Positions 28,303-49,679 of a DNA stretch of 64,000 bases are shown here, one piece after another. The first letter of the stretch is position 1; each line of letters begins with the position of its first letter. The notes below the pieces were generated by a model. It saw only the letters and a list, made by a program, of their open reading frames with translations. It did no database searches and was not told the DNA's origin. The position numbers were made by a program, and so were the translations under genes. Origin of the DNA: Phycisphaerae bacterium RAS1 (GTDB lineage Bacteria > Planctomycetota > Phycisphaerae > UBA1845 > Fen-1342); NCBI GenBank assembly GCA_007859745.1, contig SMLU01000005.1, forward strand, positions 62,001 to 126,000. Reading direction: 5' to 3'.

Positions 28303-29061
28303 GTGCGAGTCCTCGTTTCCTGCGCCGCGCTGTTCGGCGCCGTGGCGGCTGACCTCGCCGTCGGCGACACCGCTGTTTCAATCGTTCCGGTCGCCGACGC
28401 GTTTGTGCGCGAGCAGGATCCGACGTCCAACTTCGGCGGCGGCGGCGGGTTATCCGTCGGCGGGCCGAACTCCGTGAACGGGGGAGGGAGCTTTCGCGGG
28501 CGGTTTGATACCGTGATGCGCTACGACGCGGCCCCGTTGGTAGCCGAATTCGACAGCGTTTTCGGCGTCGGCCAGTGGACGATCAGCTCGGTTACGCTCA
28601 GCCTCAGCGAATTCGGCGCGCCGACCAGCTTGCTGTTTCCGCGCGGCCTGGGCACGTACGCGGTGAGCTGGCTGTCGGCCGACGCGTGGTCCGAGGGCAG
28701 CGGCACACCGGCGGCGCCGGAGCCTGGCTCAGGCGACGTCGTGACGTGGAACCTGCTGCAAGCGCTGGTCGCGTCGGGCAGTGAAAGCCTGCTAGGCGGC
28801 GGGGCCAATACGCAAACCAATATGACCTACACGATTCCGCTCGCGACGGACGCGGCGTTTCTCGCCGACATCGCCGCCGGCGACGCCGTCACGCTGCACC
28901 TCTCCCCCACCAGCGACGCGATCGGCTTCACCTTCCGCGCTCGCGACCACTCCGCCACGGAACTGCGGCCGATTCTCACGCTCACCGCCGTGCCGGAGCC
29001 GGCGTCGGCGGCGCTGCTGCTGTCGGCGCTGGCGCTGCGCTCGGCGGCGCGGCGGCGCTAG
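28303..29061 (+). CDS. PEP-CTERM protein with DNRLRE-type beta-sandwich
   Basis: 252 residues from GTG 28303, set by AGGAGG 8 bases upstream. It has a signal peptide (VRVLVSCAALFGAVAADLAV). The mature start IVPVADAFVREQDPTSNFGG, the RFDTVMRYDAAPL strand and TLSLSEFG resemble DNRLRE domains. The C-terminus VPEPASAALLLSALALRSAARRR is a textbook PEP-CTERM tail (VPEP, hydrophobic helix, Arg cluster), recognised by an exosortase for surface export. No exosortase gene is in this window. Its last 80 bases overlap the convergent Ton-like gene. Confidence 0.85.
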   Translation: MRVLVSCAALFGAVAADLAVGDTAVSIVPVADAFVREQDPTSNFGGGGGLSVGGPNSVNGGGSFRGRFDTVMRYDAAPLVAEFDSVFGVGQWTISSVTLSLSEFGAPTSLLFPRGLGTYAVSWLSADAWSEGSGTPAAPEPGSGDVVTWNLLQALVASGSESLLGGGANTQTNMTYTIPLATDAAFLADIAAGDAVTLHLSPTSDAIGFTFRARDHSATELRPILTLTAVPEPASAALLLSALALRSAARRR

Positions 29062-32000
29062 TCCTTCCCACGTCGAGCGAATAGAGCGGCAGATAGCGGT
29101 AATAAACCTCCAGCATCAGCGTGCACAGCGCTGTCTGGTAAATCCGCCCGCCGACCGGCGCCCACTCGCCGCGCGGCGGCCAGCTACCGGCCGCATGGCC
29201 GTCGGCTTCCTGGTGCGCCAGCAGCTCGCCGGTCAGCCGCTCGTTCCACCGCTCCCACGTTTCGCCCTGGCGGTGAAACAGCGCCAGCGTGGCGTAATAC
29301 CAATAGTACGTGTTCGTCTCGCCGCGCCAGTTGGGCAACTCTCGGACGATCGCCGCCGCGGCGCCTTCCATCTTCGGATCATCATGCGCGACGCCCAGCA
29401 GCTCATTCACGAACATCGCTTCGGCCGTCATCGACGCCGTCGCGCGACGATTCGGCCGATAGGCGTACAGCCCCGGCCGGCCGGGCGTCACCACGTTCTC
29501 CAACCAGCGGCGGGCCGAATCGAATGCTTCCGCCGGCACGTCAACGCTGCACAGCTTCGCGCTTTTCAGCGCCATGACCTGCCAGCCGAGCACCGACGTG
29601 TCTCCCGCCTGGCCCGGTTCGTAACGCCATCCTCCCGTGCGGTCATTGCGGGCGGCGGCGATGAAAGACACGGCTTTCTTCAGCGGATCGGAAAGCTGCG
29701 AATCGCCGCTCATGCCGAAGGCTTCGGACAGCGCGATGGTTGCGATTCCCTGCGTGTACATGGTCTCGTCGCCGCGCAGGTCGCCGCGCTCGTCCTGCCG
29801 CTTGAGCAGCCAGCGCAGCCCGCGCTGCACATTCTCGCGATACGGCCCGTCCTTGACGTGCGTATGGCCGGCGCCCAGGAAGCACAGCAGCGACAGGCCG
29901 GTGAGTGCGACGTCCACTTCGTATTCCGTGTCGCCGCCGCAGGAGCAGGCGTCGTCGAAGCCCGCCCCGTCCCAGTGCCCGTCGCGATGCTCGTGCTGCG
30001 CGAGCCAGTTCAGCGCGGCGGCGACGGCCTTCTCCGTTCGTTCGTTGCCGCCGCGCTGCGCGAGCATGGGCGAGCGCTGCTCCGGGTCGCGCTGCGCGTA
30101 GGGCTGGCCTTCGGGCGTCGTCTCAACCGGCAGGCGCAGACCGATCGCCGGCGGCTGGATGACCGGCGTCGTGCCGGATGGATCCGTCGTAGGCGACATG
30201 TTTCGCGAGCCGCTCGGCGCAACGACATCGACCAAGCTCTTCTCGCCGGATTTTGACGAGCCGACCGTGGGCGTCAGATCGATTCGCCGCGGAGCGCCGC
30301 CGGAGACGGGCAGCAGCGGGCCGGACGCCCGGCTCGGGCCGGGAGCAGCGGCCACGGGCGAGATGCCGCCCGACGATTTCTCCGTCACCGCGACGCCGGA
30401 GCCGAACGCGGCGCGGTCGGCCGGAAGCGCGAATCCCGCCGCCAGCTCGACCGCGGGGATGTTTGTCGCGTTCACGCTCGCTGCCGCGGAACCAGGCTGC
30501 ATCGGACCGGTCGCCAGGCTTGGCGCTGCGTGGCCATTCGTGCCCAGCGAGGGAGGCGCGACGACGATCGCGCTCAGCGCGTTTTGTCCAACCGCGCCCG
30601 TGGCGACGGGGATTGGGTTGGTCTGAGATCCAAGCGGCGCAACCGGACCAGGCAGCGAAGCGGCGCTCTCGGGCGCCGAAGCCGCGGGCGCGACGTCCTT
30701 CGGAAGGTCTAGCGCCACGGCCGGTGCATCAGGGACAGGTGTCGCGCCGGCCGGCGCGACGCCCACCGCGGGCGCCTCATCGCGGGCCGCCAGGCTTTCG
30801 GTCGAGCGCGCCGCGGTGGTAGACCGCGGCTGAATGTCGGCCAGCTTCACCGCCGGCTGCGATGCAGGCCACTCCACGTTTGGTTTCTCTGCGCGAAGCG
30901 CCATCGGCGGCGGCGCCGCGGGGATTGCTTCGCCCGCCGCGACCGGCTGCGCGTCGGCCGGCGTCTGAAGCGCGTCGATTTGCATTTCCGGTGCGGTCGG
31001 CGTCGGCGCCGCCGTCGCGGCGACGTCGGACGCCGTCAGCGAACGATCTGCCGGCTGAATGACCGGCGGTGCGATCGCCGCCAGCAGCGGTTTCTCAGCC
31101 GTCGGCGCCGGCGGCGGCAACGGCTCCAGCCGGGCTTCGACCGCCGCCAGCGTGCTCGCCTGCGTGAAATCGCCGCGAACCTGGGCATAGAGCGTGTCGC
31201 CCGCGCCGGCGGAGGCCAGCGTGATCTTGGTCTTCCCACCGCCGCCGACGGCCTTGACGATGTCCGCGGTGACGTTCCAGAAGCTCATCGCCAGCATCAG
31301 CAGCGAATGCAGCAGCAGCGAAAAGAGCAGGCAGCGGGCCAGCAGGCTCAGGCGCCGGTCACGCTGCGAGCGCAGAAACAAGAGCAGCAGCGTGACGAGC
31401 AGCAGCGCCAGAAGCAGCCAGAAAAGATTGGCCTGCAGCGCCGCCCAATCGATGTTCCGTTGGGCGAGCTCCGTCTCCGCAAAGACCTCGCGGGCCGTCG
31501 TTTGATAGACGTTGTACGCGCCGGGACGCGACCCGTCCGCCGGGCGATCGGAGCTGAAGAGCAGCGCAAAGCCCAGGTGCGCCAGGGCCGGGTCCAGCTC
31601 GTTGCTGGCCGAGTTCACCTCGGTTCCGAGGTTCGCCGGCGGCTGCCAGTCGTCGCGAACGTGGCGCGAGCGATACAAATCAAACCCGCCGCTGCCGCCG
31701 GAACGATCGGAGCAGAAGTAGAGGAAATCGCCGGCCGGGCTGAAGCACGCCGCGCCTTCGTTGGCGGCGGTGTTGAGCGCCGAAAGCCGCGCCGCGTCGG
31801 TCGGCCCCGAGTCCGTCAGCGACGACGCATACAGGTCATACGTCCGGTGCAGAAGATCCTCGCGCACCGTCGCGACCCACGCCTCCGGATTCGGCCTGAC
31901 CGCGGCATCGCCCGTCGGCCGATTCGAGGCGAACAGCAGCGTCGCGCCGTCCGGCGAAATCGCCGGACCGTAGTCATTGAACTCCGAGTTCACGCGCGGC

Positions 32001-32551
32001 CCGAGGTTGGTCGGCGTCTCCCAACCGTCGTCGCCGCGCCGTGCAACCCACAGGTCGTAGCCGCCCAGGCCGCCCGGCCGGTCGCTGTAGAAATAGAGCG
32101 CCCGGCCGTCGGGCGACGGCTCCGGACCCAGGTCGTCGTAGTCGCCGTTGATCCGCTCCAGCGGTTGCGGCTCGGCCCAGCCCGTCGGAGTGCGCGTCGC
32201 GACCAAGACGTCTGCGTCGCCGCCGGCCTTGCCGCGCACGAAAAACAGCGTCAGGCCGTCCCAACTGACGCGCGGCTCGTAGTCCTCGCCCGCGGCGCTG
32301 GCCAGGGCGGGCAATCGCTGCGCCGGGCGCCAGAGAATGTCGCGCGGGGCGACGGCGTGTTGCGGCGCGCGGATCGTATCGGCGTCGCTGAAAAAGACGC
32401 GCCGCTCCGGCTGCAGCCGCCAGATCAGCAGCGCCGCGCCGCCGCCAAAGAGAAGCGTCCCCGCCACGGCGATCAGCCACGGCCATCGCCGACGACTTCT
32501 GATCGGTGTATTGATATCACCTGGCGGCACAACTGCACCTGAACCAATCAA
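28982..32551 (-). CDS. PD40 propeller / TonB-type SxxxH helix / terpene-cyclase-fold fusion protein
   Basis: 1189 residues (TTG 32551; GTG 32530 with AGGTG upstream is an equally good start). Order: basic N-terminus and membrane helix (about 22-45), TolB-like PD40 blades (60-350; PSPDGRALYFYSDRPGG, SPDGATLLFASNRP, FSPAGDFLYFCSDRSGG), second helix (372-394) then RSQRDRR. Third helix (402-426) has Ser411-x3-His415 as in TonB. Then a Pro/Ala-rich linker (430-830) and a squalene-cyclase/prenyltransferase-like toroid (835-1165; AALNWLAQHEHRDGHWDG, GLRWLLKRQDERGD). Predicted topology puts propeller, linker and toroid in the periplasm. It lies directly after exbB and exbD, so it is probably driven by the proton motive force. 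The A/P-rich final 27 residues are antisense to a PEP-CTERM gene. Confidence 0.85.
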   Translation of the reverse strand: MIGSGAVVPPGDINTPIRSRRRWPWLIAVAGTLLFGGGAALLIWRLQPERRVFFSDADTIRAPQHAVAPRDILWRPAQRLPALASAAGEDYEPRVSWDGLTLFFVRGKAGGDADVLVATRTPTGWAEPQPLERINGDYDDLGPEPSPDGRALYFYSDRPGGLGGYDLWVARRGDDGWETPTNLGPRVNSEFNDYGPAISPDGATLLFASNRPTGDAAVRPNPEAWVATVREDLLHRTYDLYASSLTDSGPTDAARLSALNTAANEGAACFSPAGDFLYFCSDRSGGSGGFDLYRSRHVRDDWQPPANLGTEVNSASNELDPALAHLGFALLFSSDRPADGSRPGAYNVYQTTAREVFAETELAQRNIDWAALQANLFWLLLALLLVTLLLLFLRSQRDRRLSLLARCLLFSLLLHSLLMLAMSFWNVTADIVKAVGGGGKTKITLASAGAGDTLYAQVRGDFTQASTLAAVEARLEPLPPPAPTAEKPLLAAIAPPVIQPADRSLTASDVAATAAPTPTAPEMQIDALQTPADAQPVAAGEAIPAAPPPMALRAEKPNVEWPASQPAVKLADIQPRSTTAARSTESLAARDEAPAVGVAPAGATPVPDAPAVALDLPKDVAPAASAPESAASLPGPVAPLGSQTNPIPVATGAVGQNALSAIVVAPPSLGTNGHAAPSLATGPMQPGSAAASVNATNIPAVELAAGFALPADRAAFGSGVAVTEKSSGGISPVAAAPGPSRASGPLLPVSGGAPRRIDLTPTVGSSKSGEKSLVDVVAPSGSRNMSPTTDPSGTTPVIQPPAIGLRLPVETTPEGQPYAQRDPEQRSPMLAQRGGNERTEKAVAAALNWLAQHEHRDGHWDGAGFDDACSCGGDTEYEVDVALTGLSLLCFLGAGHTHVKDGPYRENVQRGLRWLLKRQDERGDLRGDETMYTQGIATIALSEAFGMSGDSQLSDPLKKAVSFIAAARNDRTGGWRYEPGQAGDTSVLGWQVMALKSAKLCSVDVPAEAFDSARRWLENVVTPGRPGLYAYRPNRRATASMTAEAMFVNELLGVAHDDPKMEGAAAAIVRELPNWRGETNTYYWYYATLALFHRQGETWERWNERLTGELLAHQEADGHAAGSWPPRGEWAPVGGRIYQTALCTLMLEVYYRYLPLYSLDVGRTSAAAPPSAAPAPTAAAPPTPAPARR

Positions 32552-32568
32552 CCGCTGTGGCTCACATC

Positions 32569-32672
32569 CTGTCAGAACGCGAAGCGCAAGCGAGCGTCGC
32601 CGGCAGGTGCGCTCCGCCTGTCAGAGCGCGAAGCGCCAGCGCGCGCGTCCGGCGGTCGCGCTCGCGTCCACG
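32569..32672. repeat. TCAGAACGCGAAGCGCAAGCGAGCG repeats between operon genes
   Basis: Two forward copies (CTGTCAGAACGCGAAGCGCA and CTGTCAGAGCGCGAAGCGCC) with GC-rich inverted segments separate exbD from the fusion gene. The 191-bp gap has no other feature. Confidence 0.7.
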
Positions 32673-32742
32673 CTAAGACTCCGCTTGCCGTCGCGCGCGC
32701 GCGTCGCGGATAGATGGCCATTCCAAGAGCCGCGAGTCACGA

Positions 32743-33156
32743 CTACTCCGCCGGAACCGTGTCGAGAAACGGCTCCTGTATCCCCGCGGCCTTGCAGATG
32801 TCCAGCACGCGGACCACGTTGGCGTAGGCCGTCGTTCGGTCGCCGCGGACGGCCACTTTTTGCTCCGGGTTGGCCGCAGCCGCGTCGTGGACCATTGTCT
32901 GAAGTTCCTCCGCCGGCATTTTCCGCCCGGCGACGACGATCTCCCCCGCGGCATCGACGTTGATGACAATCTCGCGAAGCGCCGCGCTGATCGGCCCGGA
33001 CGTCTTCGCGAACGGCAGCACGACGTTCATCTCGCGCTCGACCTGCGCAATGGTCGTCGCGAGCAGGAAGAAGATCAGCAGGTTGAAGAGCACATCGGCC
33101 ATCGGCACAAAGTCGATGTGAATGCTCGATTCAACGTCGTCGCTGCGAATCATCAT
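32743..33156 (-). CDS. exbD: ExbD/TolR-family biopolymer transport protein
   Basis: 137 residues, normal for the family. The start at 33156 (MMIRSDDVES) has GGAG 8 bases upstream. A short cytoplasmic N-terminus leads into the single helix IDFVPMADVLFNLLIFFLLATT; the Asp in PMADVLFNL is the essential protonated residue of ExbD/TolR. A periplasmic domain with VRGDRTTAYANVVRVLDICK follows. It forms the peptidoglycan-binding rotor part of the ExbB-ExbD proton channel. It starts 22 bases after exbB ends. Confidence 0.93.
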   Translation of the reverse strand: MMIRSDDVESSIHIDFVPMADVLFNLLIFFLLATTIAQVEREMNVVLPFAKTSGPISAALREIVINVDAAGEIVVAGRKMPAEELQTMVHDAAAANPEQKVAVRGDRTTAYANVVRVLDICKAAGIQEPFLDTVPAE

Positions 33157-33178
33157 GGCGAATTCTCCGCGTGGCCCG

Positions 33179-33976
33179 TCAACCGGTCGCGCCAGACAGC
33201 GCCGCACTTTCAAGAGGCGCCTCCACTGCTGCGGCTTGTCCGTGCCACCCGGAACCTTGCGCGACCGGCCTCTGGTCGGTCTTCCCGGCGTGGAGCGCCT
33301 CTTCCACCCAGTCCGTCGCCGCCTGGTCCAGGTCAACCATGCGCGCGTCGATCCGCCCGTGCAGCACGTGATAGAAAATCAGCACCGGAATCGCGACCAG
33401 CAGCCCGGCCGCCGTGCACGTCCACGCTTCAAAAATGCCGCGCGCCAGCATCTCCGTCTTGCCCAGCGACTGTCCCGACGTCGCCACCGCCTGAAACGTC
33501 TTGATCATGCCGAAAATCGTGCCCAGCAGCCCGAGCATCGTCGAAACCTGCGGCAACGCCCCCAGCAGCCGCATTCGTTGCCGCAGCCGAACCAGCTCGC
33601 GCCGCCCCGCGTCGTCCACCGCCTTCTCCGTCGCCTCGCGCCCCTCATCAATCCGCCCGGCCGCCGCCGCGAGAACGCGCCCCACCGGCGAATTCGCCGC
33701 CCGGCAGTAGTCCAGCGCCCGCTTCCGGTCCCGTCCCGCCGCGCCGAGCCCCGGCAGAAACGCCGCCGGAATCACCCGCCCGCGGCGCAGGATGATGAAT
33801 CGCTCGACGATGACCGTCAGCGCCACCAGCGAGCAGGCGGCGATGACCGCCATCGTCGGCCCGCCGCGAACCGCGTAGTCCCAGACCGATTCGAGCTTGA
33901 ACGCGGCCTCCGGCGCCGCGGCCACCGGCGCAGTCTGGGCCAGGATCAGCCATGCGGATTGGACAAGCACGGGCAT
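33179..33976 (-). CDS. exbB: ExbB/TolQ/MotA-family proton channel protein
   Basis: 265 residues from ATG 33976 (AGGTGA upstream). Signal-like start (MPVLVQSAWLILAQTAPVAAAP), then three helices: GPTMAVIAACSLVALTVIVER, VSTMLGLLGTIFGMIKTF with the channel Thr region, and GIFEAWTCTAAGLLVAIPVLIFYHVL. This is the family layout. It couples proton flow to movement of a TonB/TolA-like partner. The last 45 residues (KTDQRPVAQGSGWHGQA) are encoded by a GACCGGCCTCTGGTCGGTC repeat and look acquired. Confidence 0.92.
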   Translation of the reverse strand: MPVLVQSAWLILAQTAPVAAAPEAAFKLESVWDYAVRGGPTMAVIAACSLVALTVIVERFIILRRGRVIPAAFLPGLGAAGRDRKRALDYCRAANSPVGRVLAAAAGRIDEGREATEKAVDDAGRRELVRLRQRMRLLGALPQVSTMLGLLGTIFGMIKTFQAVATSGQSLGKTEMLARGIFEAWTCTAAGLLVAIPVLIFYHVLHGRIDARMVDLDQAATDWVEEALHAGKTDQRPVAQGSGWHGQAAAVEAPLESAALSGATG

Positions 33977-34150
33977 TGAATCACCTCGCGGACATTGAAC
34001 GACAGAGACACAGAGAATCCGGTGAGACTCGGATGGCGAATAACGAGCGCGCATGTTCCTGCGCAATTTCGCGCTGGTTGTCTCTGAACGCCTCGATCCC
34101 GGCCTTTCGCATTCTCTGTGTCTCTGTGCCTCTGTGGTTAACCTTCCGGG

Positions 34151-37075
34151 TCACTTGCTGCCGCTGCCGGCCGCGTGTCCGGGCGGCGCGGACGCCGTCG
34201 CCGCCAGCCGCTGCTGCGCCATCTCGCCCCAGCGCGTCTTTCCGTGTTTTTCCGCGACCTGTTTGTACTGCGTACGCGCGTCGCCGTTCTTGCCCAGCGC
34301 CTCAAAACAGCGACCGGCCTCAAACAGCGCCGCCGCACTCCACTCCGGGTACGCGTACAGAATGTCTACCTTCAGCAATTCGCGCACGGCGTCCTCGTGC
34401 TGCTTGAGCGCGAACAGGCACTCGCCGATCTGAAACTGCGCCCGCGCCGCCGTCGGACCCTGGTGCCGGGCCGCCACGTCGCGATAGGCGCTGATCGCTT
34501 CGTCAAAGCGCTGCTGATTCTCGCGCGCCCATCCCACGCCGAACCGCGCCGTGAACCACTGCTCCGAATCGGGAAACAACTTGAGGTAGCGGGCCAGCGC
34601 CTCCTCGCTCCGCGGCCAGCGCTGCAGCGCCGCCAGCGATTCGCCCAGCCGCAAGAGCGCCGGACCGAGCGTCTCGGCGGGCGCGTCCTGGTCGGCCAGC
34701 ACCGCCAGGCACTCCACCGCTTTTTCATGCTTACCGCCTCGCGCGTAAGCCTCCCCCGCAAAGAAGCGCGCCGACAGCGAAAGCGGCGAATCAGGCCGCT
34801 CGCTGATCAGCTTCGAAAACGTCGCCGCAGCGTCGGCAGGTTTGCCCAACTCAAACTGGCATACACCCAGGCGATAGCGCGCCTCATCGCGCAGCTCCGC
34901 CGCCAGCGACTTGTGCTCGTCCAGCTTTTCGCAGACCGGGCCAAGCAGTTTGGCCGCCTCGTCGAAGCGCCGCGCCTCGGCATGCAGACCCGCCAGCTCG
35001 ATGGCCGCCCGCGCCGCAAGGTCTCCCGCTCCCCCGCTCGAGAGCGCACGGGCGTACGCCTTGATCGCGTCGTCAGGCCGCTTCAACGATCGCAGGCACC
35101 ACGCCTGTTCGTACAGCAGCAGCGTTCGACCGGCCGCGTCCAGTGCGTCGGCGCTTCGCTCCGCCGCCTGCAGCGCAGCCAGTGCGTCCTCGGTTTTTCC
35201 GGCTCGCGAAAGCGCAATGCCGAGGTCAACGCGCGCCCGCGGCGCCAGTTCATGCGTTTCGAATCGCTTCAGGAATTCTGAAAAACAGCGCGCCGCGTCG
35301 TCATACTGCTTCGCCCCCAGCAGCGCCTGTCCGCGCTGCGCCAGCACCGCGGCGGCGGCGTCCGGCGGGCCGCCCGCGTCGCCGGCGCTTTCAAGCAATC
35401 CCGCCGCCTTCTCATAATCGCCGCGGCGCATCGCGATCGTCGCCAGGTGACGGGCGGCGGCGGCGCGCAGCGACTCATCCTTCGACTCGCCGCGAACAGC
35501 CTCCAAGTCCGCCGCGGCATCATCGGCTCGATCCAGCAGCAGCAGACACTGGCCGCGTTCAAATCGCGCGTGCAGCCGAAGTCCCGCGTCGGCCTCGGCG
35601 TCTTTGGCGACCGCGTCGAACAGCGGCAGCGCATCGGCCGTCCTGCCCAGGCGCTGCTTCGCCAGCCCGAGCTTCAGCCGGGCGGCGGCGGCATCGGGTG
35701 CGCCGTCCCGGGCCAGGTGCGCTTCCAGCAAGTCCGCGGCCTTCTGCCACTCCTGTCGATCAAAGCATGCGTTTGCCAGTTCCAGCGTCGCCGCGCTCAG
35801 GGCCGCGTCCTTCCCCGCGAGCTCCGCGGCCTGTGCGAGAAGCATCTGCGCTTCGTCATGCTTCCCGAGCCGCTGCAACGCCATCCCCAGCCGCAATTTG
35901 GCGCGCGGCGCCTGGGCGTCGGCCGCATATCGCTTCAGGAAGTCCTCGAACGTCCGAGCGGCCTCGGCATTCCTGTCCGAGAGAAACGAGTTCTCTCCCA
36001 GCAGGAACATCGCCTTGGCAGTCAGCGGCGAGTCGCCCGCACTCTTGATCAGCTTCTGACACAGTTCGCTGCTGGCGTCGTACTGTTTCTGCTGGTGGGC
36101 GCATAACGCCGCGAGGTACGTCGCATCCGCCGCCAGCGGGTGCTGCGGATTGTCGCGCAGAAACGCGGCCACGGCCTTGCCGGCGGCCTCAAGCTCACCG
36201 AGCTGATGCAAGGCCGCGGCGCGATCGTAGGCGATCTCAGGCGCCAGCGAACTCTTCGGATACTTGCGAAGCGCCGCCTCGCAGCGCTCCGCCGCCGCCC
36301 GCGCATCGCCGCGCTGCAGCGCGCACCGCGCGTGCCAGAAGGCGGCCTGCTCGGCCAGCGGTGAATCACCCGATCGTTCCAGCACCTGTGACAGGTGCCG
36401 CTCCGCCGCCGGCCAGTCGCCCGCTTCCGCAGCCGACAGCCCCGCGAAGAACGCCGCCCGCTCGCGCAGCGGGCTCTCCGGCCAGCGCGACGCGAAGGAA
36501 GCCGAAGCGCTGATCGCGTCCGCGTGCCGGCCGCCCCGATGCAGCGACTCGATCCGCAGCGCCGCCGCATCATCCGCCAGCTCGTGCTTCTCGTCCGCCG
36601 CGGCGGCCCGTTCGAAAGCGCCGGCGGCCGCGGCGTAGTCCTTCTCGGCCATCCGGCACTGGCCGAGCATCACCTGCACCTCGACCGCGTAGGTGAAAGC
36701 CCTCAGATCGGCCAGTTTCTTCAGTTCCTGCTCGGCGGCGTCGAGCTTGCTCGTGCGAAAAAGGCAGACCGCCAGGCCGTATCGTGCGACCGGGGCTTTT
36801 TCATGCGCCGCGTGCCCGCTGAGAAACTTGCGGTATTCCTCGGCGGCAAGGTCATACATGCCGCGCGTCAGCAGCCCGTTGCCGGCAAGGTAGCTTTGCA
36901 GCTCACCCTGAGATTCCCGGGGGACCCCGGTCTGAGATTCCTGGGGGACCGGTCTCTGACCGGTCTCCGGCTGCTGAGCGCCCGCACGCCCAACGAAGCA
37001 CCCCGCCGCGAGCAGGCAAACCAGCGGAGCAATGCCCGTGATCGTAGCGCGCGTGAAGAATCGAGGTTTCGACAT
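34151..37075 (-). CDS. TPR-repeat lipoprotein (CpoB/YbgF/BamD-like) of the Tol-like operon
   Basis: 974 residues. Start at 37075 (MSKPRFFTRA); lipoprotein signal with Cys after LVCLLAAG. The rest is a very long tetratricopeptide solenoid: more than 20 repeats of the type A-YRLGVCQFELGKPADAAATF and A-FWHARCALQRGDARAAAERC. In the Tol system CpoB is a TPR protein coordinating wall synthesis with outer-membrane constriction; this one is several times longer. It is first of a same-strand run with exbB, exbD and the propeller fusion, with a 174-bp gap before exbB. Just after the signal peptide, ETGQRPVPQESQTGVPRESQ is encoded by GACCGGTCTCTGACCGGTC-type repeats (36910-36970). Confidence 0.85.
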   Translation of the reverse strand: MSKPRFFTRATITGIAPLVCLLAAGCFVGRAGAQQPETGQRPVPQESQTGVPRESQGELQSYLAGNGLLTRGMYDLAAEEYRKFLSGHAAHEKAPVARYGLAVCLFRTSKLDAAEQELKKLADLRAFTYAVEVQVMLGQCRMAEKDYAAAAGAFERAAAADEKHELADDAAALRIESLHRGGRHADAISASASFASRWPESPLRERAAFFAGLSAAEAGDWPAAERHLSQVLERSGDSPLAEQAAFWHARCALQRGDARAAAERCEAALRKYPKSSLAPEIAYDRAAALHQLGELEAAGKAVAAFLRDNPQHPLAADATYLAALCAHQQKQYDASSELCQKLIKSAGDSPLTAKAMFLLGENSFLSDRNAEAARTFEDFLKRYAADAQAPRAKLRLGMALQRLGKHDEAQMLLAQAAELAGKDAALSAATLELANACFDRQEWQKAADLLEAHLARDGAPDAAAARLKLGLAKQRLGRTADALPLFDAVAKDAEADAGLRLHARFERGQCLLLLDRADDAAADLEAVRGESKDESLRAAAARHLATIAMRRGDYEKAAGLLESAGDAGGPPDAAAAVLAQRGQALLGAKQYDDAARCFSEFLKRFETHELAPRARVDLGIALSRAGKTEDALAALQAAERSADALDAAGRTLLLYEQAWCLRSLKRPDDAIKAYARALSSGGAGDLAARAAIELAGLHAEARRFDEAAKLLGPVCEKLDEHKSLAAELRDEARYRLGVCQFELGKPADAAATFSKLISERPDSPLSLSARFFAGEAYARGGKHEKAVECLAVLADQDAPAETLGPALLRLGESLAALQRWPRSEEALARYLKLFPDSEQWFTARFGVGWARENQQRFDEAISAYRDVAARHQGPTAARAQFQIGECLFALKQHEDAVRELLKVDILYAYPEWSAAALFEAGRCFEALGKNGDARTQYKQVAEKHGKTRWGEMAQQRLAATASAPPGHAAGSGSK
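36910..36970. repeat. GACCGGTCTCTGACCGGTC-type repeat inside the TPR lipoprotein gene
   Basis: GATTCCCGGGGGACCCCGGT, GATTCCTGGGGGACCGGTCT and CTGACCGGTCTCC. A related GACCGGCCTCTGGTCGGTC copy forms the end of exbB near 33270. In frame, between lipobox and TPR domain. Confidence 0.65.
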
Positions 37076-37205: not shown

Positions 37206-40200
37206 CTAGCGCGCTTCAGCCGGCACGGCCTCCGTCTCGCGGACCGTGTGCATCGCATCCAGCAGAGTGCCATCCTGCGACACACGCAGCAGCCCCAGCA
37301 GCCCGTTCATCAGCGGCGATGGCAGACTGCCCAGCGGGCCCAGCAGCGGCCCGACGCCGCCCAGCGTCGACGCGGGGCACCCGCCCGGCACGGGCGTCAT
37401 CACTGGCAAGGCGGCCTCCTCGTCATCCGAATCGTCATCGTCGCCGTCATCATCCGCGTCTTCGGCGGCGTCCTCATCGGCATCCGGCGCGTCCATCTCG
37501 TCGTCGATGTCGTCGTGCAGATCGAAGTTGTCGCTTGCGGAGCCGGCCAGCGCCGTGGCCGCTTCAAAATACGCCCGCAGCGCCTCATCGGCCTGCTGCG
37601 ACCAGCCGCCCTGCATCGCCGCCAGGGCGTCGTAATGATTGAACGCGAAGTCCATGTTGGACAAGTTCATCGAGAGCCGCTCGATTGCCGCCAGCGGCTC
37701 GGTCCACTCCTCGGCCCGCTCCGCGGCCTGCTCGGCCTGCCGCTCCAGCTCCTCGGCCTCGATCTCGCTGCGGCGACGCTGGCCTTCCAGTTCCCGTTTC
37801 TGATTCTCCAGCTCGCGAAGCTGCACTTCGATCTGGCGCAGCCGATCGCGGATCATCTCCGCCTTCTCCGGGCTGCCGGCGCTGCCGACCGCCTCCGCCG
37901 CCGTTTCCAGTTTCTCGCGCAGCCGCTCCTGCATCTGCTCCATCCGCCCGGCATGCCGTTCCAGTTCCTCGGCGGCCCGGCGGCGGTCGCGGGCGTAGGC
38001 CCCGCGCGTCTGCGCCATCTCGCGCGCCTGCTGCGCCATCTGCCGAGCCGCGGCCCGCATTTCCTGGGCCGCCGGCCCATGTCCGGAGAACAGGCCTCCC
38101 GGCGGCGCCATGGCCGCGGCGCCGGGGGCGCGGCGCGGCAGCGCCTTGCCGGTCGGGTGGATCAACTCGATGAACAGGCCGAGAATCTCGTGCTCGCGCG
38201 GCGTGGCCCGCGCGCCGAGCTCGTCACCGCGCGGCGTGACCAGCACGGGGATGTCATCACGCGACATGAACTTCACCAGCGCCTCAAGCTTGCTGTCCGG
38301 CAGCTTGTAAGCCCGTTCCTCCCAACCGGAGCGAACCAGCTCGACGAACGGCGCCAACATCTCATGCTGGGCCGGAGTGCCATGGACGATGATGGCGTCG
38401 TCGGCGAGTTGCACGCGCACCGGCACGTCTTCGCGGGCCATCAGTTCATAGAGCGCCTTGGCCTTGTCGCCCGGAAGCTCGTAGCGGCGCGACATGGTTC
38501 CGTCGACCGTTCCACCGAACGCGCCCGGCGGCGCCGGCGTACGACGCTGCGTCGGCGCAGGCGGGGCAGGCGCCTCCGGCGGTCGCGGCGTAGCGTGCGG
38601 GTGCTCGTGCGTTTCGTGCAGGCGGGCGCGCATCGCCTCCAGCTCGGCCCGCATCCGGTCCAACTGCTCGTTCAGCCGGTCCATGTTCTGGCCCGGGGGC
38701 GCCGGCGTCGGCGGCGCAGCCACGGCGGCGCCGCCACGGCCCTTGCCGCCGGCAGCGCCCTTGCCGCTGCGCGCGACGTAACGGTCAAACGTAACCGGAT
38801 CCTCATCCTCACCGCCCGCCTGGCCTGAGAACACCGCCACCGGAGCGCTGCCGCGGACGTGCGGAACCGCCATCACCGGCGGCGTCGCCGCGACCGGCGC
38901 CGTCGGAGCCGTCGGCGCGACCGCCGGCGCTGGCGGCGTACGCCGCGCCTGTGCCACCGGCGCCGTCGCCTTCACGTTCACCTTCACCTTCGCCTTCGCC
39001 GCTTCCTTCGCGGCTTTCTCTTCCGGCGGGCAGGACCAGGCCGGCAGCGTCGCCCATCCGAGCGTCAGCACGGTCAGAGCCACGGCCAGCCCCGGCAGCG
39101 AGCCGGCGGGGCGCTTGCGGTCGGTCATGATCATTTTCAGTCTCCTTGCAAAACGTGTGGCTCTCACGTTCGTCGTCGCCATGCCCACCACGGGCGCGGC
39201 GGAAAAATCGGGCGAACTGTAAGTGCGTGTGCGGATCAGGGCTTCGGCATACGCCCGCCGGCTCTGCGGCATCAGCCAGGTCACCCAGGCGTCGCAGCTC
39301 AGGTCGGCGTCTTCTCGAATGCGCTGCCGCAGCCACCACGCCGCCGGGTTCCACCAGAACACCGCCCCGCTCAGCATCTCCAGCCAGCAGACCCAGTGAT
39401 CGCGGCGATGAATATGGGCCAGCTCGTGGCACAGCACCGCCTTGCGCCCGACGCGGTCAAGCTGCGTCCAGAGCGGAGCGGGCAGGATCAGCCGCGTCTT
39501 GCGGCCACACCACACTAGCGGCGAGACCTGCTCATGGACCATCAGCGTCTCGGGCGCCTGCTGCATGCCCAGCGCGTCGGCGACGTCGCTCACGGCGTAG
39601 ATCACCGAGCGCGGCGCGGGAAACGCGCGCGCCAGCCTCGCCCGGACGCGCAGGACGCGAAGCGCATGCAACCCAGCGGCGAGCAGCGCACCAATCAGCC
39701 AGGCGTACCACGGAATGCTCGGGATTCGTTCGAATACTCCGCGAACGGCTCCGAGCGCGGCGTGCCACGCCTCCGTCCAACCAGTTACCAGCGGCTCACC
39801 CGCAGTCGTCGCGGCATCTTCCTCGGAAGTCTCCTCCGACTGTCCGGTTCGCGGCGCTACCGCCGGCGTTGGCGTCGTACTTGGCGACGTAGCCCGGCCG
39901 CCCTCGGCCGGCGTCGTAGCCCGGCCGCCCTCGGCCGGTGTCGTAGCCCGGCCGCCCTCGGCCGGTGTCGTAGCCCGGCCGCCCTCGGCCGGCGTTGTAG
40001 CCCGGCCGCCCTCGGCCGGTAATTCGCGGGTGGACCCGCGGCGAAACACCGCCGCCGCCGGTTTCTTCAACGAACTGTTGCCGCCACGGGCCACGGGCGA
40101 GCCCCCCGCACCACCCACGCCCGCCCCGCCAACCGCGTCACTACCAACGGGCAAATCGACATCGCGCGGCGCGGCCATCGGGCCCGGCCGCCGCACGCTG

Positions 40201-40748
40201 GAAATATCAGGCCCGCCCGAGCCGGCTGCCGGTGAGAGCCGGTCTGGCAGACGAGGCTCGGGGCGGGGTACGGTGGATCGGAAACTCACATCAGAGCCGC
40301 GACCGTGAGGGAGCGGTGCTGGATTGGCGGTCGCAACAATGCCGGAACTGCCCTGGGGAGTGCGAGCGTCCCGCCCGCGCTGGGTGGAACGGGCGTCCCG
40401 CCCGTTGACTTGGCTGGAACGGGCGTCTCGCCGATCAGATTGGGTGGGACGGGCGTCTCGCCCGTCGAGTTGAGTGGTACCGGCGTCTCCCCCGTCTTCG
40501 GCTTTTACCACGCCGACCGGGTGTTCCGCCCCCCGTTCCGCCCGCGCCGTCATCGCCGGAAGCACCGGCGACCACACCGGCAGGAAGCCGCCCACCAGCA
40601 GCCACGCCAGCACGCTCAGCCACAGCGTGTGCCGCAGCGCCGGCCGGAGCGGAATGACGCGCGTCGCCAGCGCCACCAGAATCACCAGCGTCGCACCCGA
40701 CCACGCTCCGCGCCACAGTGCGTCCGTCAGGGTCTCGATCCAGGTCAT
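37206..40748 (-). CDS. blaR1: BlaR1/MecR1-like M56 peptidase-sensor with extended C-terminus
   Basis: 1180 residues from ATG 40748 (GGGAG upstream). N-terminal helices (ATLVILVALATRVIPL, LWLSVLAWLLVGGFLPVW), a long low-complexity linker, a further helix pair, then the M56 zinc protease HELAHIHRRDH with GAVFWWNPAAWWLRQ and the E-DADLSCDAWV region. After a final helix (ALTVLTLGWATLPAW) the usual sensor domain is replaced by Pro/Ala linkers, two related alpha/beta segments (YELPGDKAKALYELMARED and YKLPDSKLEALVKFMSRDD), a coiled coil and an acidic tail. It is expected to cleave BlaI on a signal. The first linker carries three repeat families in frame. Same strand as blaI, 78 bases downstream. Confidence 0.85.
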   Translation of the reverse strand: MTWIETLTDALWRGAWSGATLVILVALATRVIPLRPALRHTLWLSVLAWLLVGGFLPVWSPVLPAMTARAERGAEHPVGVVKAEDGGDAGTTQLDGRDARPTQSDRRDARSSQVNGRDARSTQRGRDARTPQGSSGIVATANPAPLPHGRGSDVSFRSTVPRPEPRLPDRLSPAAGSGGPDISSVRRPGPMAAPRDVDLPVGSDAVGGAGVGGAGGSPVARGGNSSLKKPAAAVFRRGSTRELPAEGGRATTPAEGGRATTPAEGGRATTPAEGGRATTPAEGGRATSPSTTPTPAVAPRTGQSEETSEEDAATTAGEPLVTGWTEAWHAALGAVRGVFERIPSIPWYAWLIGALLAAGLHALRVLRVRARLARAFPAPRSVIYAVSDVADALGMQQAPETLMVHEQVSPLVWCGRKTRLILPAPLWTQLDRVGRKAVLCHELAHIHRRDHWVCWLEMLSGAVFWWNPAAWWLRQRIREDADLSCDAWVTWLMPQSRRAYAEALIRTRTYSSPDFSAAPVVGMATTNVRATRFARRLKMIMTDRKRPAGSLPGLAVALTVLTLGWATLPAWSCPPEEKAAKEAAKAKVKVNVKATAPVAQARRTPPAPAVAPTAPTAPVAATPPVMAVPHVRGSAPVAVFSGQAGGEDEDPVTFDRYVARSGKGAAGGKGRGGAAVAAPPTPAPPGQNMDRLNEQLDRMRAELEAMRARLHETHEHPHATPRPPEAPAPPAPTQRRTPAPPGAFGGTVDGTMSRRYELPGDKAKALYELMAREDVPVRVQLADDAIIVHGTPAQHEMLAPFVELVRSGWEERAYKLPDSKLEALVKFMSRDDIPVLVTPRGDELGARATPREHEILGLFIELIHPTGKALPRRAPGAAAMAPPGGLFSGHGPAAQEMRAAARQMAQQAREMAQTRGAYARDRRRAAEELERHAGRMEQMQERLREKLETAAEAVGSAGSPEKAEMIRDRLRQIEVQLRELENQKRELEGQRRRSEIEAEELERQAEQAAERAEEWTEPLAAIERLSMNLSNMDFAFNHYDALAAMQGGWSQQADEALRAYFEAATALAGSASDNFDLHDDIDDEMDAPDADEDAAEDADDDGDDDDSDDEEAALPVMTPVPGGCPASTLGGVGPLLGPLGSLPSPLMNGLLGLLRVSQDGTLLDAMHTVRETEAVPAEAR
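39889..40023. repeat. 27-bp tandem repeat x5 inside blaR1
   Basis: Five near-identical units of GTAGCCCGGCCGCCCTCGGC-CGGYGTC, each 27 bp, so each adds nine residues (PAEGGRATT) without shifting the frame. Confidence 0.95.
40289..40497. repeat. Two interspersed palindrome families in the blaR1 linker
   Basis: A GAGCCGCGACCGTGAGGGAG copy (40289-40315, read as LPHGRGSD) and four GGAACGGGCGTCTCGCCCG units about 30 bp apart (40381-40497, read as repeated GRDARxTQ). All are in frame with the gene. Confidence 0.85.
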
Positions 40749-40826
40749 CGCCAGGCTCCCAACCTTGCGGATTCTGCGATCAGCCACTCGTCGGCCGGGG
40801 CCGCATCGCGGCTCGGGCCGCTCGCC

Positions 40827-41225
40827 CTATTCCGTCGTCTTTTCCGGCTTGTCCAGGTCGTCGATGAGCTTGTGCAGTTCCTGCACTTCCGCCGGCGTCA
40901 GGCGTTCGCTTTTGACCAGTTGCAGCACCAGCGGACCGGCTGCGCCGTCGTAAAGCTGTTCGAGCAGCGACCGCAGGCGCGAGCGGCTGACTCGTTCGCG
41001 TGAAACCAAGGCCCGAAAGCGAAAGGCCGTGCCGCTGCGGTCGCTGCGGACGAAGCCCTTCTGCTCCAGGCGCGTCAGAAACGTCTGGACGGTGGTGTAG
41101 GCCAGCCGGCGGCCGCGCTCTTCCAGGTGGCTGAGCACCTGCCGCACGGAGGCCGGGCCGGCGTCCCACAGCACCTTCATCACTTCAAACTCAGCATCGG
41201 GCAATTCGTATTCGCGGGTCGCCAT
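40827..41225 (-). CDS. blaI: BlaI/MecI/CopY-family repressor
   Basis: 132 residues, the family length. Winged helix at the N-terminus (EYELPDAEFEVMKVLWDAGP, SVRQVLSHLEERGRRLAYTT, VQTFLTRLEQKGFVRSDRSG) and a C-terminal dimerisation helix (LTPAEVQELHKLIDDLDK). The family binds operators as a dimer and is inactivated by BlaR1-type cleavage. It heads a blaI-blaR1 pair with a strong promoter and palindrome upstream (41274-41302). The nearest AGGAGG lies 27 bases from the ATG, with a small GGCCGCTCGGCC hairpin between. No beta-lactamase gene is nearby; planctomycete BlaI/BlaR pairs often control other genes. Confidence 0.92.
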   Translation of the reverse strand: MATREYELPDAEFEVMKVLWDAGPASVRQVLSHLEERGRRLAYTTVQTFLTRLEQKGFVRSDRSGTAFRFRALVSRERVSRSRLRSLLEQLYDGAAGPLVLQLVKSERLTPAEVQELHKLIDDLDKPEKTTE

Positions 41226-41273
41226 GGTTTATTCGTCCGGCCGAGCGGCCTCCTCCTACATGTGTCGGAGGAC

Positions 41274-41302
41274 AGTGTACTACACTTGTCGGAGGGTGTC
41301 AA
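41274..41302 (-). promoter_or_regulatory. blaI-blaR1 promoter with overlapping BlaI-type operator
   Basis: On the minus strand TTGACA (41302-41297), a 17-base spacer and TACACT (41279-41274). The -10 box is one half of a perfect 13-base palindrome AGTGTA-G-TACACT (41274-41286). A second ACATGT palindrome lies about 15 bases downstream near 41259-41264. BlaI-type repressors use TACA/TGTA half-sites, so autorepression is the natural reading. Confidence 0.7.
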
Positions 41303-42699: not shown

Positions 42700-43072
42700 C
42701 GGTAATCGGTCCTATCGGAACGTCATGCGTCGAAAGTGATGCGCCGGATTCTTCGGCTGTCGCCGGCGTGAGCGTGAGTAGCGGGGGGGTGTGCCCATTA
42801 CTCCGGGAGGGCGGCTTTTCTTTCCGAACCCGCCGCGCCAAGCGGCGGGTTGAGGTGCGCACAGCGATCGGCGTCAATCTACGAAGCGCCGCCGCGAACG
42901 CGCCCGGACGTCACCTTCGCCGCTTGGCGCGGCGGGTTCGGACAAGCCGGCGGGCTGGCCCGGATTTGAGGTCACACCCACCGGTCGGTAGCGGGGAGCA
43001 TCAGCGTCGCCGATGCTCCGCGACGTGGACCGGGACTATACTGCCCGCAGTTTGTTCGCACGGAGGTGCACT
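42700..43072. other. Gene-free stretch upstream of the M2 peptidase
   Basis: It contains the REPIN pair at 42822-42943 and an imperfect GGGGAGCATCAGCGTCGCCG ATGCTCC palindrome at 42991-43021. A GACTATACT sequence (43034-43042) about 30 bases before the ATG could be a -10 region. Nothing else is recognised. Confidence 0.5.
42822..42943. repeat. REPIN-like inverted pair
   Basis: Forward unit TCCGAACCCGCCGCGCCAAG and reverse unit CGCCGCTTGGCGCGGCGGGT, separated by about 65 bp. The reverse arm has TTC in place of the usual ACCC at its outer edge. Confidence 0.88.
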
Positions 43073-44968
43073 ATGAACATCGGAAACAACGGCCACTCCA
43101 CTTCAGACGACGCGCCGCTGCGCCTCACACGCCGCGACGCCATGAAAACCGCCCTCGCCGCCGGGGCCGCCGTCGGCGGGATCGGAATCGCGGGATGCGC
43201 CAGCGGCGGCGGAACGATTGAATCGGACTCGCGCTCCGTCGGCGACACGCCGCGCGACGTGAACAAATGGCTCCGTCAGTACGAGCGCGGCTTCCAACCG
43301 CTCTATACGAAGGCTTCCTCCGCCGCATGGATCGCCGGGACGGACGTCTCGGACGAGCACACCGCCGCGTCCGTCGCGGCCCAGCAGGAACTGGACCGCT
43401 TCGTCGGCGACAAGGCGCGGATGGAGCAGATCGCCAGCCTGCGGGCGCAGACCTGGCGCAACCCCCCGCTGGTCAACCGGCAGCTTGAAAAAGCGTGGAT
43501 GGCCGCGGCGCACGCCCCCGGCTCGATCCCCGAACTGGTCAAGCAGCGGGCCGAAGCCGAGGGGAATCAGTCCAAGACGCAGGACGGCTTCGCGTTCAAG
43601 CTCAAGACGCCGACGGGCGAGAAGCCGGTCAATACAAACGACATCGATGAAGTCCTGATGAAATCGGGCAATCTCGACGAGCGCCTGGCGGCCTGGACCG
43701 CCTCCAAAGAGATCGGCGTGGCCTTGCGCCCCGGCCTCATCAAGCTTCAGGAGCTGCGCAACCGCGTCGGCCGCGAACTCAAGTTCAGCTCGTTCTTCGG
43801 ACTGGAAGTCGCCGACTACGGCGTCGCCGTCAGCGACCTGATGAGCCTGATGAAGACCGTGCTGGAACAGACGCGCCCGCTCTACGAGCAGCTTCACTGC
43901 TACGCCAAGCACAAGCTCGCCAAGAAGTTCGGTCAACCTCCGCCGCGGCGGATTCCGGCGCACTGGCTGCCGAACCGCTGGGGACAGGAGTGGCCGGGGC
44001 TGGAGGAGAGCGTCGATCTCGATCCTCTTTTCAAAGATCGCAGCCCGCAGTGGATCATCGAGCAGGCGGAGCGGTTCTACACTTCGATGGGGATGCCGAA
44101 ACTGCCCAAGACATTCTGGGCCAAGAGTGACTTGTACGACTTGCCCGCCGACGCGACCCGCAAGAAGAATCGCCACGCCTCGGCCTGGCACATCGACCTG
44201 GAGCAGGACGTCCGCTCGCTGATGAGCGTCAAGAGCGACGCAAGCTGGTTCTCCACCACGCACCACGAGCTCGGGCACATCTACTATTACCTTGCGTACA
44301 CGAACGCAAAGGCGCCGCTGCTGCTGCGCACCGGAGCGAACCGCGCGTTTCACGAGGGGATCGGCGACCTGATCGCGCTGGCCAGCAAGCAGCAGCCATA
44401 CCTTATGGAAATCGGCATTCTGAAGAGCGACTTCAAGGCCGACCCGGCCCGCTGGCTGCTGGCGCAGGCGCTGGACGGCAACTTCGTCTTCCTGCCCTTC
44501 GCCTGCGGCACGATGACCGGCTTCGAGCACGACCTCTACGAGCGCGATCTGCCGGCGGTCAAGCTCAACGCCCGCTGGTGGGAGCTGGTGCAGCAGCACC
44601 AGGGCATCGACCCGCCCGCCCCGCGCGGCGAGGAATTCTGCGACGCCGCCAGCAAGACGCACATCAACGACGACCCGGCGGGCTACTACGACTACGCCAT
44701 CGGCACGCTGATCGTGTACCAGCTTCACGACTACATCGCGCGGAAAATCCTGAAGCAGGACCCGCGGGCGTGCAATTACTACGGGCGAAAGGACGTGGGC
44801 GAGTATCTGAGCTCGCTATTGAAGCTCGGCGCGTCGCGCGACTGGCGCGAGGTGCTGCGCGATTTCACGGGCGAAGACCTGAGCGCCCGGGCGATGATGG
44901 ATTACTACGCGCCGCTGATGGAGTTTCTGAAGAAGGAGAACGCGGGGAAAGACGCGGCGTTCGCGTAG
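43073..44968 (+). CDS. M2 family (ACE-like) peptidyl-dipeptidase, Tat-type lipoprotein
   Basis: 631 residues. The ATG at 43073 has GGAGG 7 bases upstream. RLTRRDAMKTALAAGAAVGG is a twin-arginine signal and GIAGC a lipobox, so it is exported folded and anchored. The zinc site is TTHHELGHIYYYLAY (HExxH) with the third-ligand region FHEGIGDLIALAS, the exact pattern of angiotensin-converting-enzyme relatives. C-terminal elements (YYDYAIGTLIVYQLHDYI, CNYYGRKDVGEYLSSLLKLG) also match. It removes C-terminal dipeptides from peptides. Bacterial members are scattered; the local genes give no pathway. Confidence 0.92.
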   Translation: MNIGNNGHSTSDDAPLRLTRRDAMKTALAAGAAVGGIGIAGCASGGGTIESDSRSVGDTPRDVNKWLRQYERGFQPLYTKASSAAWIAGTDVSDEHTAASVAAQQELDRFVGDKARMEQIASLRAQTWRNPPLVNRQLEKAWMAAAHAPGSIPELVKQRAEAEGNQSKTQDGFAFKLKTPTGEKPVNTNDIDEVLMKSGNLDERLAAWTASKEIGVALRPGLIKLQELRNRVGRELKFSSFFGLEVADYGVAVSDLMSLMKTVLEQTRPLYEQLHCYAKHKLAKKFGQPPPRRIPAHWLPNRWGQEWPGLEESVDLDPLFKDRSPQWIIEQAERFYTSMGMPKLPKTFWAKSDLYDLPADATRKKNRHASAWHIDLEQDVRSLMSVKSDASWFSTTHHELGHIYYYLAYTNAKAPLLLRTGANRAFHEGIGDLIALASKQQPYLMEIGILKSDFKADPARWLLAQALDGNFVFLPFACGTMTGFEHDLYERDLPAVKLNARWWELVQQHQGIDPPAPRGEEFCDAASKTHINDDPAGYYDYAIGTLIVYQLHDYIARKILKQDPRACNYYGRKDVGEYLSSLLKLGASRDWREVLRDFTGEDLSARAMMDYYAPLMEFLKKENAGKDAAFA

Positions 44969-48964: not shown

Positions 48965-49679
48965 GACCAGCCGCTCCTGACCAGACTTGGAAATGTCTAC
49001 CGCTGCGCCCCGCATCTGGCGATCAGGGCGTTTTGACGCGAATTTCCGGTAGCAACCGGGCACGGTCGCTCGGCACCGCCTTCGTCAACTGACGCAGATT
49101 CGTGCCAAATGCCGTGAGACCGAAGCGTCAGTTCGAGAGGGGGTCACAATCGGCCCGACGATGCCACTATGACCGGATCCTACCTACGTGCGGACGCGGA
49201 CGTCAACCTGAGATTGATACCATCACGCCAAGTCGCGCGAGCGGGGTGCATCCGGTTTCAAGCGCCGTCCCGTCCGAACCCGCCGCGCCAAGCGGCGGGG
49301 TAATGCGGTTCCGTCCGAACCCGCCGCGCCAAGCGGCGGGGTAATGCGGTTCCGTCCGAACCCGCCGCGCCAAGCGGCGGGGTAATGCGGTTCCGTCCGA
49401 ACCCGCCGCGCCAAGCGGCGGGGTGACGCCCGCTGCCTGAGTGCGCCAATCGCTCACGCTTCTCACCCCGCCGCTTGGCGCGGCGGGTTCCGAAAGACCA
49501 CCTACGCCCTCGGCCCTCTCGGCCCTGAAACTCCTTTCGCTCCCCGCCAACCCCGGGGTATACTCGTGCCACGTCGCCGGCCGCCGTCGTGCTCGCGGCC
49601 CGCGGACGCGATATCGGCCGAAGCGCTGGGAATGCGTCTCGGGCTGAGAAATCGTCATTAGCGCCAATTGGGACGCCAC
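48965..49679. other. Gene-free stretch with a 4+1 palindrome array
   Basis: Open frames here only read through the array and have no ribosome sites. 48965-49265 shows no feature I recognise. The array is at 49270-49492. 49500-49679 is the leader of the HAF-repeat lipoprotein gene. Confidence 0.6.
49270..49492. repeat. REPIN-like array: 4 forward palindromes (41-bp period) plus 1 reverse
   Basis: GAACCC begins at 49276, 49317, 49358 and 49399, an exact 41-bp period. The shared spacer TAATGCGGTTCCGTCC is found in no other array of the window. The fourth unit ends in GGTGACGCCC like the usual family. One reverse unit lies at 49463-49492. Confidence 0.96.

Follow-up and report, generated by a model that had tools for sequence, protein, structure and literature searches.

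Few loads of ExbB-ExbD or TolQ-TolR motors are known: the TonB receptors, the Tol-Pal system and a recently proposed class of transducers that carry a vWA domain. The question raised by the present locus is what such a motor drives when it is encoded next to a large protein of a different make-up. The locus lies in a 64-kb stretch of Phycisphaerae bacterium RAS1 (64,000 nucleotides of contig SMLU01000005.1; hereafter the window), the minus strand of which carries a TPR gene, exbB, exbD and a 1189-codon gene in that order; the product of the last gene is referred to as the transducer. The cassette starts approximately 4 kb further upstream than the TPR gene, with a blaI gene followed by a gene encoding an M56 metallopeptidase, and therefore consists of six genes: blaI, the M56 gene, TPR, exbB, exbD and the transducer gene. 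It is proposed, with a probability of roughly 75%, that this cassette encodes a proton-driven trans-envelope force transducer.

The domain make-up of the transducer agreed with a preliminary description of this DNA, which had reported a PD40 propeller, a third membrane helix with S411 and H415, a Pro/Ala linker of about 400 residues and a squalene-cyclase-like toroid; the four-gene order on one strand that it gave was also recovered from the Pfam matches and the open reading frames (ORFs). Both S411 (31321-31319) and H415 (31309-31307) are located within the third predicted transmembrane helix (TM3), where they form a Ser-x3-His motif, and 409 residues separate TM3 from the toroid.

This motif resembles the helix through which TonB and TolA engage their motors. 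In an 18-sequence alignment of propeller-bearing forms, the equivalent of His415 was invariant (18/18) and the Ser was present in 17 sequences. When both forms of the protein were aligned (21 sequences of 11-54% identity, including distant propeller-less forms at 11-25%), the His was the sole invariant column of the helix and linker. Each of the 75 full-length ExbD-linked transducers contained an xxxxH helix, which began with Ser in 71 cases and with Ala in four; this search itself looked for the His, and it is the alignments that provide the unbiased evidence. All four transducers that lacked the helix were truncated or broken ORFs. Loss of the Ser and His from orthologues, which the preliminary description had named as a reason to abandon its proposal, was thus not what was observed.

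The motor proteins retained the proton-path residues. Asp81 of ExbD was invariant (75/75), as were S79, T183 and T218 of ExbB (73/73), and P227 was present in 71 of 73 sequences. In Escherichia coli, TonB Ser16 and His20 touch Ser34 and Trp38 of ExbB and connect to Pro190 (PMC12215075); the ExbB counterparts of this Ser (73/73) and Pro (71/73) are kept in the family. A strand with the pattern IQVALxSPxxxxIAxQIRG follows the His by approximately 28 residues in the propeller-form alignment, and its spacing from the His in the propeller class matches that between His20 of TonB and the D-box, 45-ISVTMVT-51 (PMC12215075). A loose D-box pattern was detected in 53 of the 75 transducers. Taken with the conserved gene order described below, these results are consistent with an ExbBD-driven transducer, as had been suggested, in which the Ser-x3-His helix is of the TonB/TolA type and the tip is a toroid.

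Several observations weigh against this interpretation. Leu or Val occupies the position of E. coli ExbB Trp38; the Leu and Ser of the SHLS motif are not kept, with mostly F, A or L at His+7 and mostly Q, E, H or R at His+11; and the Ser-x3-His helix is the third transmembrane helix of the transducer rather than an N-terminal one. A profile search with the helix recovered no TonB or TolA, only chance matches (Klotho, ISG15) and no Pfam family, a result that is attributed to the shortness of the segment. No outer-membrane partner of the transducer was identified. Docking on ExbB-ExbD is argued by analogy, and the topology, including the side of the membrane on which the toroid is predicted to lie, from hydropathy and the positive-inside rule.

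The genome was examined for other clients of the motor. It is 99% complete and contains three ExbD and three MotA/ExbB genes in total. The only other non-flagellar motor set belongs to a vWA-transducer operon (G000:C1:549000-552200; L054:10107-13109) with the order vWA-exbB-exbD-exbD, in which the vWA protein has its own S-x3-H helix (S-LVV-H) and is accompanied by ExbB and two ExbD proteins; the third set is probably the flagellar motAB, judging from a neighbour with an OmpA domain. TonB_C (PF03544) was absent from the genome, and no separate tonB was present in the operon. Under one alternative, ExbB-ExbD serves another transducer or a lone TonB-dependent receptor, and the fusion protein is a passive envelope anchor or an enzyme. 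The genome does encode one genuine, complete TonB-dependent receptor (G000:C3; L160:8031-10064), as this alternative would have it, but without TonB_C; moreover, the motor genes adjoin the fusion across the phylum, and a passive anchor would have no need of a conserved Ser/His helix. This explanation is considered very unlikely.

The same gene order was encountered repeatedly in Planctomycetota. Of 392 genomes sampled from the phylum, 322 contained relatives of the toroid; a profile of the propeller hairpin matched 82 of the 397 genomes in the class, as a rule with a single match per genome. Scanning the named genomes yielded 79 loci. The exbD gene was directly upstream of 53 of 81 toroid ORFs, mostly together with exbB and the TPR gene, and the order TPR-exbB-exbD-transducer, for which the preliminary description had proposed a search, was found in most loci across the phylum; two metagenome-assembled genomes of Sumerlaeota (L080, L081) share it. 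Given this conservation throughout Planctomycetota, the arrangement in the window is not a chance observation.

Toroid proteins also occur in other settings. Those at L085, L087, L088, L096, L097, L109, L124, L126 and L129 have a single Ser-x3-His helix, with exbBD not adjoining in the stretch examined. The toroid protein at L045 has a zinc-ribbon-like N-terminus, one genome (L039/L094) has a toroid protein in which Asn replaces the His, and a paralogue from the RAS1 genome itself (L053:9374-11428) combines one N-terminal transmembrane helix or signal with a toroid and HEAT repeats, with no adjoining ExbBD.

It had further been suggested that the transducer represents TolA and TolB fused into one protein, a suggestion that the domain analysis did not uphold. 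In Pfam scans of the transducer, neither a TonB/TolA C-terminal domain nor a TolB N-terminal domain was found, PD40 being the sole TolB-like part. The propeller region was modelled as beta-blades, and TolB (2w8b) was the top Foldseek match (E=1e-11); however, propellers of the GH43/GH62 type gave higher Z scores than TolB (20 vs 18), and the propeller was rejected as proof of TolB descent. The propeller lies between TM1 and TM2 and is absent from most Pirellulales forms; its distribution indicates that it is a clade-specific insertion.

The C-terminal toroid was then considered as a possible enzyme. Its match to the Pfam family SQHop_cyclase_C was weak (E=7e-5) and below the Pfam cut-off, but the predicted structure has the alpha/alpha toroid fold of squalene and oxidosqualene cyclases, and its best structural relatives were squalene-hopene cyclases (2sqc: Z 26.5, root-mean-square deviation 3.0, 283 residues aligned), with sugar-epimerase folds also among the best matches. 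No vWA domain was found at this end of the transducer by Pfam, the AlphaFold model or structural matching. Conserved polar and aromatic residues lie where each of the six inner helices begins, which in barrels of this type is the usual ligand site. These matches and residues would suit a terpene or prenyl cyclase, or a sugar-active enzyme, that the rest of the protein merely places, with no use of proton energy for force. The DxDD catalytic motif was nevertheless absent from the toroid of the window protein, and the matches in four of 51 relatives were chance occurrences at differing sites. Given the lack of DxDD and the conserved inner-helix residues, ligand binding or some other activity of the modelled toroid is likelier than terpene cyclisation.

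The enzyme explanation is also difficult to reconcile with the distal part of the family, in which the motor and arm persist when the toroid gives way to a different module. Longer relatives (1330-1590 residues) carry a PF13620 carboxypeptidase-regulatory-like domain and a conserved beta-sandwich behind the toroid, and 12 of 38 propeller-bearing proteins have no toroid and only the carboxypeptidase-regulatory plus beta-sandwich module. From these sequences the distal module varies, being the toroid, the carboxypeptidase-regulatory plus beta-sandwich module, or both; the window transducer is the toroid-only form. In a tree of ExbB and ExbD the propeller-bearing Phycisphaerae formed one group (support 99), within which there were at least eight changes of the toroid and at least seven of the beta-sandwich module; the tree was a quick one with some weak branches, and these counts are approximate. 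Two labels in the tree, 'toroid without propeller' for L063 and an odd one for L182, stem from broken or truncated ORFs. No copy of the carboxypeptidase-regulatory/beta-sandwich module was found elsewhere in the RAS1 genome, and where a transducer had lost its toroid, a search for one in trans gave merely distant toroids (≤45% identity). The pattern is that of a motor and arm that stay constant while the tip changes, and an enzyme whose placement is the sole purpose of the protein is the least probable of the explanations considered. The toroid that the preliminary description postulated as an effector is present as the tip of this protein; it is not the defining part of the family.

Regulation of the cassette was examined at its upstream end. 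The TTGACA-N17-TACACT sequence was the only promoter-like site on either strand between 28500 and 41600, compared with an average of 0.6 in shuffled sequences. With one mismatch allowed, TACANNTGTA matched three times in the window, and two of these matches were at the blaI promoter; a BlaI-type box was found in seven of 16 orthologous blaI upstream regions, against approximately 0.03 expected in each. In 12 of 14 named Phycisphaerae loci the M56 gene directly preceded the TPR gene, and blaI adjoined the M56 gene in all 13 loci examined. Several related genomes hold one M56 gene in total, so its linkage to the operon is not due to abundance. A penicillin-binding sensor domain was not found in the M56 protein, for which Pfam gave M56 and sub-threshold metallopeptidase matches. 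In this protein (gene at 37206-40787) the long C-terminal part includes a segment that is repeated, ELPGDKAKALYELMAREDVPV / KLPDSKLEALVKFMSRDDIPV, as well as a stretch resembling a coiled coil. Judging from this arrangement, BlaI and the M56 protease probably turn on the operon in response to an envelope signal.

The same linkage could be read differently, as that of a sensing and signalling unit instead of a machine performing work: the arm, coupled to its motor, would test the state of the cell wall or outer membrane, and the TPR protein or the propeller would relay the outcome to the M56 protease, which would then cleave BlaI. Fixed membership of blaI and M56 in the cassette, the sole M56 gene of several relatives, the boxes over the promoter and a propeller anchored to the inner membrane close to the M56 protein would all be expected of such a unit. 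Plain regulation of the operon accounts for this linkage equally, however, and no blaI-M56 pair was found beside the operons of the propeller-less Pirellulales forms, some genomes of which are without any M56 gene, which indicates that the core machine works without M56. Signalling as the function of the arm is therefore regarded as unlikely, although less so than the two alternatives above.

In the force-transducer model, ExbB and ExbD would form the inner-membrane motor and the 1189-residue protein its arm. TM3 (S411xxxH415) would dock on ExbB in the manner of the TonB/TolA helix, and the strand at 440-447, just outside the membrane, would dock as a D-box on the periplasmic dimer of ExbD. 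The linker of approximately 400 residues would span the periplasm, so placing the toroid tip where it could grip an outer-envelope ligand or partner and pull or remodel it. The propeller, which TM1 and TM2 would tether to the inner membrane, may be a clade-specific accessory or docking part, as may the periplasmic TPR protein. Coordinates of the cassette and of the transducer domains are collected in Table 1.

Table 1. Positions in the window of the cassette genes, the upstream regulatory sites and the segments of the transducer. RBS, ribosome-binding site; TM, transmembrane helix.
Feature	Position	Strand	Evidence and remarks
Sigma-70-like promoter TTGACA-N17-TACACT	41274..41302	-	upstream of blaI
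Two BlaI-type boxes	41257..41290	-	gacaagtgta 41290-41281, in promoter spacer; gacacatgta 41266-41257, beside RBS
blaI-type repressor gene	40827..41225	-	PF03965 Penicillinase_R, E=3e-32
BlaR1-like M56 membrane metallopeptidase gene, 1193 residues	37206..40787	-	PF05569, E=1.5e-25
Large TPR protein gene	34151..37075	-	predicted periplasmic; TPR_16, 13 stretches, E=2e-56; TIGR02795, E=6e-73
exbB/tolQ-like motor gene	33179..34066	-	PF01618 (MotA_ExbB), E=4e-24; start could be 33976
exbD/tolR-like motor gene	32743..33156	-	PF02472, E=1e-24; ORF open from 33336
Transducer gene, 1189 residues	28982..32551	-	ORF; PD40 and weak SQHop_cyclase_C
TM1 (residues 25-43)	32423..32479	-	predicted inside to outside; hydropathy; helix 22-45 in AlphaFold model
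PD40 beta-propeller (residues 75-365)	31457..32329	-	PF07676, E=1.5e-24; periplasmic by positive-inside rule
TM2 (residues 369-395)	31367..31447	-	predicted outside to inside; hydropathy segment 375-393; model
TM3 (residues 403-436)	31244..31345	-	predicted inside to outside; hydropathy segment 403-421
D-box/motor-box-like strand KTKITLAS (residues 440-447)	31211..31234	-	strand 440-446 in model, low pLDDT
Pro/Ala-rich linker (residues 448-825)	30077..31210	-	15% Pro, 21% Ala
(Alpha/alpha) toroid (residues 830-1165)	29057..30064	-	AlphaFold pLDDT 91

The TPR ORF is open from 37285, with an in-frame ATG at 37075, the end point used in the preliminary description. Its designation there as a lipoprotein was not retained: orthologues carry ordinary signal peptides and no lipobox, from which the TPR protein would appear to be an ordinary secreted protein. 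At the other end of the operon, a tRNA-Ser called by ARAGORN at 28984-29060 was rejected for want of Rfam confirmation, which the other two tRNAs received; the call falls inside the overlapping 3' ends of the transducer gene and a convergent PEP-CTERM-like ORF. Elsewhere in the window are a gene for an angiotensin-converting-enzyme-like peptidase M2 (43013-44968; PF01401, E=2e-97) and one for a protein that combines collagen-like repeats with a Peptidase_S74 (endosialidase chaperone) domain at its C-terminus (46673-49063).

In a search of 32 genomes, almost all of them chosen as carriers of the propeller hairpin, 26 had no TonB_C, and the cassette may replace Ton. The broader proposal, put forward tentatively and at somewhat less than even odds, is that the cassette represents a distinct lineage of proton-powered transducers with a BlaI/BlaR1-type envelope switch and exchangeable tips on one motor-plus-arm platform, which replaces TonB, or part of Tol-Pal, in many Planctomycetota. 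A conserved motor and arm with differing tips would show force transducers to be modular, and a BlaR1-type sensor would become linked to an energised machine of the envelope. In a phylum whose cell envelopes are unusual, the cassette would also point to candidates for the envelope machinery, and the reason why many Planctomycetota genomes manage without TonB becomes testable.

The closest described system is the class of vWA-domain force transducers (Williams-Jones et al. 2025, PMC12204202); a literature search, which most subscription journals lay outside, gave nothing beyond that paper for the toroid-form architecture. In both systems TPR, TolQ-like and TolR-like genes lie beside the transducer gene, in the vWA case in bacteria of the Planctomycetes-Verrucomicrobia-Chlamydiae (PVC) group (PMC12204202), and the transducer has a transmembrane helix with conserved Ser and His, a motor box (putative in the present transducer), a Pro-rich linker and a globular end that is not that of TonB. 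The vWA transducers differ in their end domain, which here is a toroid and/or the carboxypeptidase-regulatory plus beta-sandwich module, and in having two exbD genes rather than one; the two extra transmembrane helices, the propeller and the blaI-M56 cassette are particular to the present system. With TonB-ExbBD and TolA-TolQR it shares the proton-path residues of the motor, the Ser-x3-His helix, an equally spaced, putative D-box-like strand and a long linker that is predicted to be periplasmic, but it has no TonB/TolA C-terminal domain, its helix is TM3 after a propeller, and the Leu and Ser of SHLS are not kept. The likeness to TolB of the Tol-Pal system is the PD40 beta-propeller fold; here, in contrast, the TolB N-terminal domain is missing, the propeller is tethered to the membrane on both sides, and the operon has no pal or other OmpA-family gene, proteins with OmpA domains being encoded elsewhere in the genome. 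PorE, a CpoB-TolB-Pal-like fusion of Bacteroidetes, likewise joins a TolB-like propeller to envelope domains that include a carboxypeptidase-regulatory-like one, but it is a lipoprotein of the outer membrane and carries an OmpA domain (PMC12204202), whereas the present transducer is predicted to be an inner-membrane, motor-linked protein. Finally, the cassette resembles BlaI-BlaR1 pairs in having a PF03965 repressor beside an M56 membrane protease and BlaI-type boxes over the promoter; it differs from them in that the M56 protein has no detected penicillin-binding sensor domain and in that an ExbBD transducer, rather than a beta-lactamase, would be placed under control.

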